Of a stretch of DNA of 64,000 bases, positions 14,574 to 26,947 are shown piece after piece. A model generated the notes under the pieces. That model was given only the letters and a program-made list of their open reading frames with translations, was not told the origin of the DNA and did no database searches. The DNA comes from Dehalococcoidia bacterium (GTDB taxonomy: Bacteria > Chloroflexota > Dehalococcoidia > Bin125): assembly GCA_022828105.1 (NCBI GenBank), contig JAJEJC010000007.1, positions 124,001 to 188,000 on the forward strand. The letters run 5' to 3'. Made by a program: the position numbers and the translations under genes. Position 1 is the stretch's first letter. Each line of letters starts with the position of its first letter.

Positions 14574-14843
14574 TGGCCGTGCACCTGGAATCGAACGACT
14601 CCACAAGCTTGCCTTCGCTAGCCGGCTCCGTCCAGGCACTCCCGCGTCACCCGACCGAACAACCGCTTACCGCTGCTTCCTCTCGGACCTGACGGGGTTC
14701 ACGGCGGGCCGCCGCGCGGGACCCAGACTTCATCACTGCTTGGCGTCGGTAGGTCTCATGTCGCCGGCCTCAACTCAGGAGTTCAACCCCGCTAGAGCGG
14801 ATTGCGGGTACAGGGCACCGCTAGCTCCCCGTCTAGCACGGCC
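14574..14843 (-). ncRNA. ffs: Large-type bacterial signal recognition particle RNA
   Basis: On the minus strand the universally conserved SRP helix 8 appears around 14660-14700: GTGAACCCC, GTCAGGTCCG, then AGAGGAAGCAGCGGTAAGCG, followed by CGGGAGTGCCTGGACGG. Toward the 5' side (14765-14835) are CCCTGTACCCGCAATCC and GGGGTTGAACTCC, typical of the Alu domain of large SRP RNAs. The ends pair: GGCCGTGC at 14836-14843 with GCACGGCC near 14574-14581. The implied length of about 270 nt equals the Bacillus scRNA class rather than the 110-nt 4.5S class. Exact ends are estimated from that closing helix. Confidence 0.93.
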
Positions 14844-25498: not shown

Positions 25499-25527
25499 TT
25501 GAAACCGCGAACCGACAGTCCTAGTAT
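25499..25527 (+). promoter_or_regulatory. Promoter of infC-rpmI-rplT
   Basis: TTGAAA (25499-25504), a 17-base spacer and TAGTAT (25522-25527) make one of the best sigma-70-type promoters in the window. Transcription should start near 25534, giving a leader of about 45 bases that contains a perfect hairpin and the infC ribosome-binding site. Confidence 0.75.
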
Positions 25528-25540
25528 CGGCGACAACAGA

Positions 25541-25561
25541 GCGAATCAGACGATGATTCGC
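25541..25561 (+). promoter_or_regulatory. Leader hairpin just before the infC ribosome-binding site
   Basis: GCGAATCA (25541-25548), loop GACGA, TGATTCGC (25554-25561): a perfect 8-base stem that ends four bases before the AAGGAG site. It is placed so that it could influence ribosome loading on infC; no U-run follows, so it is not a terminator. Confidence 0.6.
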
Positions 25562-25578
25562 AGCGAAGGAGATTAGCT

Positions 25579-26211
25579 CTGGCCGTCAAGGATCAACGAG
25601 AACAACGTGAACAGCGCGTCAACGAAGCGATCCGGATCCACGAGGTGCGAGTGATCGGATCCGAGGGCGAGCAGCTCGGCATCATGCCGACCGGTCAGGC
25701 CCTCGACCTGGCCCAAGCTCAAGGTCTGGATCTGGTGGAAGTCGCGCCCAATGCCCGCCCACCGGTCGCCAAGATGCTCGACTACGGTCGCTACAAGTAC
25801 GAGCAATCAAAGCGAGAACGCGAGGGGCGGCGGCGCCAGAAGACCGCGTCGTTGCATCAGGTCAAGATGCGCCCGAACATTGGCAAACACGACATGGAGG
25901 CCAAGGGACGTACGGCGGCTCGACTGCTGCGCAATGGCGACAAGGTCAAGATCTCGGTGATGTTCCGGGGACGCGAGATCACCCACCGAGAAATCGGCCA
26001 GGAGCGTATCCAGGAGATGCTCGACACGCTGGCCGAGAACGACGTGCCGACCGTGGTTGAGAAGCCGATTACGACCGAGGGCAGATTCATGTCGGTGATC
26101 GTGGTCGAGGACAAGGCGAAGGCCAAAGCGATCGCCGACGCCAAGGTCGCTCCCGACACGGAAGCAGCCGACGCCGTCGAGTCGATTGAGGCGGTCGAAG
26201 CCGCGGGCTAG
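25579..26211 (+). CDS. infC: Translation initiation factor IF-3, apparent CTG start
   Basis: 210 residues. IF-3 binds the 30S subunit, keeps subunits apart and checks the start codon. The N-domain motif RVNEAIRIHEVRVIGSEG begins at residue 11; the linker KMLDYGRYKYEQ and the C-domain KMRPNIGKHD, KVMFRGREI-type strand and a C-terminal Ala/Glu tail of about 25 residues follow. The first in-frame ATG, GTG or TTG is GTG 25645, inside the conserved N-domain. A CTG at 25579 lies seven bases after AAGGAG and gives the family N-terminus AVKDQ; the in-frame codons back to the stop at 25522 contain no other start. Confidence 0.93.
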   Translation: MAVKDQREQREQRVNEAIRIHEVRVIGSEGEQLGIMPTGQALDLAQAQGLDLVEVAPNARPPVAKMLDYGRYKYEQSKREREGRRRQKTASLHQVKMRPNIGKHDMEAKGRTAARLLRNGDKVKISVMFRGREITHREIGQERIQEMLDTLAENDVPTVVEKPITTEGRFMSVIVVEDKAKAKAIADAKVAPDTEAADAVESIEAVEAAG

Positions 26212-26269
26212 CGCTCGTACCACCTCTACTGCTGCGCCCAGCCGGATCCTGCCCCTGTGTTGCGTCTGA

Positions 26270-26298
26270 TTGGACTGTGTCCAAATCGATCGTAAGCT
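26270..26298 (+). promoter_or_regulatory. Inverted repeat and possible secondary promoter before rpmI
   Basis: TTGGAC-TGT-GTCCAA (26270-26284) is a perfect 6-base inverted repeat. TTGGAC could also serve as a -35, with TAAGCT 17 bases on at 26293-26298. It may be an internal promoter or an RNA site for ribosomal-protein feedback; the sequence alone does not decide. Confidence 0.3.
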
Positions 26299-26355
26299 GA
26301 TACGAAGCGACGGCCGGGTTTCGCCAGGCCGCGACTGCGCTGGAGATCACGATCC

Positions 26356-26562
26356 ATGCCGAAGATGAAGACTCACAAGGGCGCGGCCAAGCGATTCCGC
26401 ATCACGCGAAACGGCAAAGTGATGCGGATGAAGGGCTACCGCGGACACAACAAGCAGAAGAAGCACAAGCGTACTCTGCGCGCACAGGGCCGGATGCACG
26501 AAGTCAAGCGTGCCGGCGATCAGAAGCGCGTCAAGCGATTGCTGCCCTACGGCTCGCCCTGA
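26356..26562 (+). CDS. rpmI: Ribosomal protein bL35
   Basis: 68 residues, the usual length. MPKMKTHKGAAKRFRIT at the N-terminus, then KGYRGHNKQKKHKRTLR and a basic C-terminus; this is the standard bL35 pattern. It is a component of the 50S subunit. GGAG lies about ten bases before the ATG. Gene order infC-rpmI-rplT is the widespread one. Confidence 0.98.
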   Translation: MPKMKTHKGAAKRFRITRNGKVMRMKGYRGHNKQKKHKRTLRAQGRMHEVKRAGDQKRVKRLLPYGSP

Positions 26563-26587: not shown

Positions 26588-26947
26588 ATGCCTCGAGTCA
26601 AGGGCGGACCGCGCGAGCGGCGTCGCCACAAGAAAGTCCTCAAGCAGACCAAGGGCCATCACGGCGTACGCAATCGGCTCTACCGCCGGGCCTCCGAGTC
26701 GCGCCTGCACGCCCTCTCCTACGCCTACGCGCACCGGCGCGAACGCAAGGGCGACATGCGTCGCATCTGGATTCAACGGATCAATGCCGCGGCGCGCCTG
26801 AATGGCACGACATACAGTCGCCTGATTCACGATCTCAAGCTGGCTGGTATCGAAGTCGACCGCAAGGTGCTGGCGGAGATGGCCGTCCATGACCCGAGTG
26901 GGTTCGCCTCGGTCGTCGAGCAGGCGCAGTCGAGTCAAGCAGCCTGA
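26588..26947 (+). CDS. rplT: Ribosomal protein bL20
   Basis: 119 residues, normal for bL20, an early 50S assembly protein that often represses its own operon by binding the m[21 protein letters not shown] opens the protein, where most homologues have RARHKKIL, followed by [14 protein letters not shown] and [18 protein letters not shown], then the globular domain with [24 protein letters not shown]. It lies 25 bases after rpmI. Confidence 0.98.

Follow-up and report, generated by a model that had tools for sequence, protein, structure and literature searches.

IF3 control of infC in known systems

In E. coli, the IF3 gene infC is followed by rpmI and rplT. The start codon of E. coli infC is AUU and the gene is autoregulated (PMC5472188), and IF3 selects against every start codon except AUG, GUG and UUG (PMC4611024; PMC5472188), hereafter the canonical starts. 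In other bacteria, infC starts at AUA in S. aureus, at AUC in Streptomyces and at AUU in B. subtilis and Xanthomonas (PMC13009471, PMC5472188, PMC6097659, PMC5559785); these starts are likewise non-canonical, but all deviate at the third base and none is CUG. A related case is Streptomyces sigR, whose GTC start is repressed by IF3 with a measured effect (PMC5472188), the same kind of repression as we propose below, in another gene and with another codon. We found no report of CUG or ACG as an infC start in the literature searched (including PMC1805508 and PMC5622118), a body of mostly non-subscription papers whose accessible parts name AUU, AUC and AUA. A survey of genes that favor starts other than AUG (arXiv 2008.10758, cited in PMC9845219) could already list such cases.

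The infC locus in the window very likely has a CTG start

We analyzed a 64,000-nt stretch of a Dehalococcoidia genome (the window), whose positions are used throughout. Its infC locus (L001) carries the following features.

25522..25524, + strand, in-frame stop (TAG) read in the sequence, bounding the frame upstream and overlapping the -10 box
25566..25571, + strand, Shine-Dalgarno sequence (SD) AAGGAG, 7 nt before CTG, invariant in 15/15 genus members
25579..25581, + strand, CTG start codon, found in 15/15 genus and 19/19 family members
25579..26211, + strand, infC (IF3), 210 codons with CTG start, TIGR00168 E 9.7e-54, IF3_N and IF3_C, frame and start conserved
26356..26562, + strand, rpmI (L35), ATG start, TIGR00001, control gene
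26588..26947, + strand, rplT (L20), ATG start, TIGR01032, control gene

Profile matches gave the order infC, rpmI, rplT, and a biotin-carrier gene precedes infC and its promoter. The encoded IF3 has two domains, matched by PF05198 and PF00707 in addition to TIGR00168, and is alignable along both with IF3 of known structure. The locus thus shares with E. coli infC the gene itself, a strong SD, a start outside AUG/GUG/UUG and the gene order. The E. coli AUU deviates at the third base, whereas the CUG of the window deviates at the first, and unlike E. coli infC the gene appears to have its own promoter, behind the biotin-carrier gene; feedback is proposed here by analogy. AUU, AUC or AUA is usual in infC genes of the E. 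coli type without being part of the mechanism, and the window has CTG instead.

The preliminary description of this DNA had reported no ATG, GTG or TTG between the stop at 25522 and the N-domain, which we confirmed. Over the 18 codons from 25525 to 25578, ATG, GTG, TTG, CTG, ATT, ATC and ATA are all absent in frame. The first in-frame canonical codon is GTG 25645, where the mechanical open reading frame list opens the gene (188 aa). From the comparisons below, we consider it very likely that infC starts at CTG 25579.

The CTG start is kept throughout the family

The preliminary description had placed the start at the CTG lying 7 nt after AAGGAG and had called for an alignment of infC 5' regions from relatives. 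In our comparison, CTG, AAGGAG and the 7-nt spacer were present in all 15 genus species (window included). The four other family genomes with an infC match (L067-L070) encode a shorter N-terminus but had CTG in the corresponding register behind an SD, so that CTG was kept in 19/19 family members. No infC match was found in G015, the fifth family genome from another genus. An ATG or GTG start with an SD at this position, which would have spoken against CTG, occurred in 0/19. Its recurrence across genomes makes a sequencing error very unlikely.

Between the in-frame stop and CTG, no canonical codon was found in 13/15 genus members, three of which (L056, L065 and L066) have the stop only four codons before CTG. 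The remaining two (L059 and L060) have an in-frame TTG or GTG farther upstream, without an SD of at least 4 nt. Elsewhere in the IF3 genes of the genus, CTG accounts for 78 of 160 Leu codons, compared with 15/15 at the start site, which indicates that it is kept here as a codon. In each of the 19 family members the codon directly after CTG is GCN, which in the class often follows ATA too; this suggests that the family has kept the start site and not acquired one at another place.

A rival start site is an internal GTG, 25645 or 25651, which would yield an IF3 lacking its first 22-24 residues. GTG 25645 is the first in-frame GTG and the mechanical list begins there; the preliminary description had named it as the alternative start. 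However, the codon at this position is GTG in nine, TTG in one and GTA or GTC in five of the 15 genus members. In L060 the codons at both positions are GTC and GTA, and therefore neither can be a start there. The stretch that would be lost also contains RVNEAIRI, which is conserved in IF3 and opens the IF3_N profile. We regard an internal start as extremely improbable.

Non-canonical infC starts beyond the family

We compared start codons in 180 infC genes from three phyla (Chloroflexota, Pseudomonadota and Deinococcota). Among near relatives, 56 of 61 genomes matched and 50 were used (G023, G027, G031, G033, G052 and G053 were left out); a wider search of the phylum matched 198 of 201 genomes, from which we took 70, the 30 best and 40 picked to add families. 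The two outside sets, the best-scoring 30 of 60 and 30 of 41, were centred on L034 (Pseudomonadota) and L026 (Deinococcota), from which the phylum names were taken. A second match in G003 (376-aa frame), which may be contamination, was left out. For each gene, the in-frame ATG, GTG, TTG, CTG, ATT, ATC, ATA and ACG codons were ranked by their SD at 5-11 nt and the best was chosen, with no codon preference.

By this chooser, CTG was the start in 19/19 family members and in 0/161 genes elsewhere. The rest of the class (n=40) gave ATA 26, ATC 6, ATT 2, ACG 1, TTG 1 and no SD in 4, and the rest of the phylum (n=61) gave ATT 22, ATC 20, ATA 15, ACG 3 and TTG 1. Pseudomonadota (n=30) gave ATC 14, ATA 8, ATT 6, GTG 1 and no SD in 1, and Deinococcota (n=30) gave ATA 28 and ATT 2. 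Altogether 172 of the 180 infC starts were non-canonical, 3 canonical and 5 undecided, the doubtful rows being L137 (ACG or ATA), L157 (ACG, CTA or GTC) and the five without an SD. Applied to rpmI and rplT of the same loci, the chooser gave ATG, GTG or TTG in 173/194; of the remainder, 10 received a non-canonical codon and 11 none. By a stricter test, 117/180 infC genes have no in-frame canonical codon over 40 codons or as far as the stop, compared with 0/194 for rpmI and rplT. As a check on the chooser, the Deinococcota ATA followed by KEYL fits the N-terminus of the solved Thermus IF3 in 5lmn, where KEYLTNERIR begins at residue 2.

Probable ACG starts were found in another family, f61, where infC has ACG in 4/4 genomes examined (L141, L283, L284 and L285; G215, G150, G202 and G072). 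An in-frame TGA lies two codons before this ACG and GGAGG lies 8-9 nt upstream, and the ACG aligns with the ATC of L143 from another family. ACG is thus the likely infC start in f61. The f61 infC genes also have a terminator-like hairpin and T run just before the SD. In f29 (L074 and L280), infC may likewise start at ACG, and in f33 (L077 and L170) it may start at an ordinary TTG, a possible exception in the class.

The comparison therefore shows a near-absence of AUG, GUG and UUG as infC starts in the sampled clades. What is conserved is a start outside ATG/GTG/TTG, with CUG as a lineage-specific codon swap: the ancestor of the class probably already had a non-canonical infC start, for which the family then substituted CTG. 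The preliminary description had called CUG an independent solution. Since ATA, ATC and ATT are in use in the class and phylum, this was too strong, and the change is the replacement of one non-canonical codon by another and not a separate invention of the switch.

The infC leader contains a conserved promoter and a local hairpin

Upstream of the SD we identified three further features.

25499..25504, + strand, -35-like hexamer TTGAAA, in 15/15 leaders
25522..25527, + strand, -10-like hexamer TAGTAT (TA[GC][TC]AT in relatives), in 15/15 leaders
25541..25561, + strand, perfect 8-bp hairpin with a 5-nt loop (stem 25541-25548 / 25554-25561) between promoter and SD, in 4/15 species

On its own, the TTGAAA-17-TAGTAT site at 25499-25527 is unremarkable (1 found, 0.5 expected by shuffling). 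The promoter proposed earlier is credible despite this near-chance scan because TTGAAA-17-TA[GC][TC]AT is present in all 15 genus leaders.

The preliminary description had also made the hairpin before the ribosome-binding site part of a possible switch. The hairpin itself is real. When the 38-nt leader segment was shuffled with its base composition kept, 400/400 shuffles gave a stem shorter than the 8 bp seen here, while the whole 99-nt leader folds no better than shuffles (z -0.48). Besides the window, three close relatives keep 8/8 pairs, and the four species differ by one compensatory G-C for A-T exchange, a covariation matched by 135/500 shuffles and hence weak. In the other 11 genus species, no fewer than 6% of shuffles, and mostly far more, equaled the best stem. 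The hairpin is thus kept in only 4/15 species and, with a strong stem absent from most of the others, does not qualify as part of a family-wide switch. It is perhaps a local addition, a stabilizing stem at the 5' end. We also considered the palindrome as a genome-wide operator and rejected this, as a search of the whole own genome gave an exact match at infC only and two mismatches at all other sites; a private operator of infC is possible.

Bacillus controls the same operon from the 5' side through an L20 leader, but the window hairpin is far smaller; the Rfam L20 leader had no match at gathering score anywhere in the window, including upstream of infC. Rfam does place an ordinary large bacterial SRP RNA (RF01854) at 14577-14841 on the minus strand of the window. 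Pairing of the SD with its spacer (AGGA with UCCU before CTG, seen in many genus members) was discarded, the mean being -2.41 kcal/mol compared with -2.30 kcal/mol in shuffled spacers. Downstream, the 144-base gap between infC and rpmI (26212-26355) contains the short inverted repeat TTGGAC-TGT-GTCCAA at 26270-26284; rpmI-rplT may have a promoter or control site of their own there.

IF3 feedback through CUG is the favored explanation

We propose that infC is translated from CUG 25579 and that this start subjects it to feedback of the E. coli type, a reading we hold with good though not full confidence. The gene's own promoter would give an mRNA whose leader is some 45 nt long (from the predicted transcript start), on which initiator fMet-tRNA, guided by AAGGAG, would begin at CUG. 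Against the CAU anticodon, CUG has a first-base mismatch, and 30S subunits bearing IF3 should reject it. IF3 synthesis would then fall when IF3 is plentiful and rise when it is short. The loop would be the E. coli AUU feedback run with another codon, probably a variant of a known self-limiting trick, and would not need the hairpin to work across the family.

Such autoregulation, which we infer from E. coli, is likely because IF3 rejects non-canonical starts, because the E. coli precedent exists, because CUG is a poor start and because the window IF3 aligns in both domains. In E. coli, expression from CUG reaches 0.86% of that from AUG (PMC11497404, citing others), CUG makes less stable initiation complexes (PMC11497404), and at the first base IF3 tolerates Watson-Crick pairs only (PMC10158994). 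This last rule fits rejection of CUG and does not in itself imply autoregulation.

The same poor expression from CUG (PMC11497404) would suit a simpler explanation, in which CUG is merely a weak start that fixes IF3 at a low level with no real feedback. Holding IF3 down might take no more than a weak start. However, a weak SD or promoter could set a fixed level as well, and here the SD is strong (AAGGAG); the 172/180 non-canonical infC starts also agree better with starts selected to be rejected by IF3 than with starts selected to be weak. We therefore consider a plain weak start rather unlikely. Less probable still is that control lies mainly with the 8-bp hairpin, as a protein-binding operator or a stability stem, with CUG secondary. 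The 8/8 pairs in four species with their one compensatory change, and a palindrome that recurs exactly nowhere else in the genome, would agree with such a role, but the strong stem is missing from most of the 11 remaining species of the genus and the covariation is of a kind that 135/500 shuffles reach.

An altered initiator tRNA might instead make CUG an ordinary start in this lineage. The initiator-type tRNA of the window genome has A29-U41 replacing G29-C41, and a different change in the same helix, a G30-C40 swap, weakens E. coli discrimination against CUG (PMC11497404). The anticodon nevertheless remains CAU, and G29-C41 is found in 6/12 genus members and in four family genomes of other genera, yet CTG is the infC start in all 19. 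These counts refer to the genomes found, the anticodon-arm pattern having missed G001, G003 and G007 in the genus, G018 in another genus and 18/41 class genomes; ARAGORN was applied to 30 loci among the 45 tRNA matches in the window genome and to 6 stretches. In the genome sample, 30/961 in-frame CTGs lay behind an SD, compared with 2.3% for all codons except ATG/GTG/TTG. This chooser covered about 464 kb of 2.74 Mb and 358 gene frames, 238 of which gave none, and is noisy because most genes there have no clear SD; it shows only that CTG is not clearly enriched. Taken together, an initiator tRNA changed so as to make CUG an ordinary start is scarcely credible, its distribution among the genomes found being at odds with CTG in 19/19. 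The A29-U41 pair itself occurs in 6/12 genus members found: G000 (C10:44624-44650, L306), G002, G004, G006, G011 and G013.

Implications of the codon swaps

We lean, with some reservation, towards the view that selection on Chloroflexota infC keeps rejection by IF3 while the rejected base has moved: the third in most families (AUA, AUC and AUU), the first in this family (CUG, 19/19) and the second in another (ACG, 4/4 genomes examined). This suggests that selection acts on IF3 rejection and not on a particular codon. If true, nature would offer in the infC start codons a series of IF3 sensors, each with its own tuning, and an essential gene would genuinely start at CUG and at ACG in nature, in the case of CUG across a whole family. 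First-base discrimination by IF3 would also become testable with natural sequences.

For annotation, an ORF finder restricted to ATG/GTG/TTG opens IF3 at 25645 (25645-26211), cutting the first 22 residues. We predict that, in genomes of this family, IF3 is truncated at its N-terminus by standard gene callers, and the same risk applies to other infC genes with non-canonical starts.
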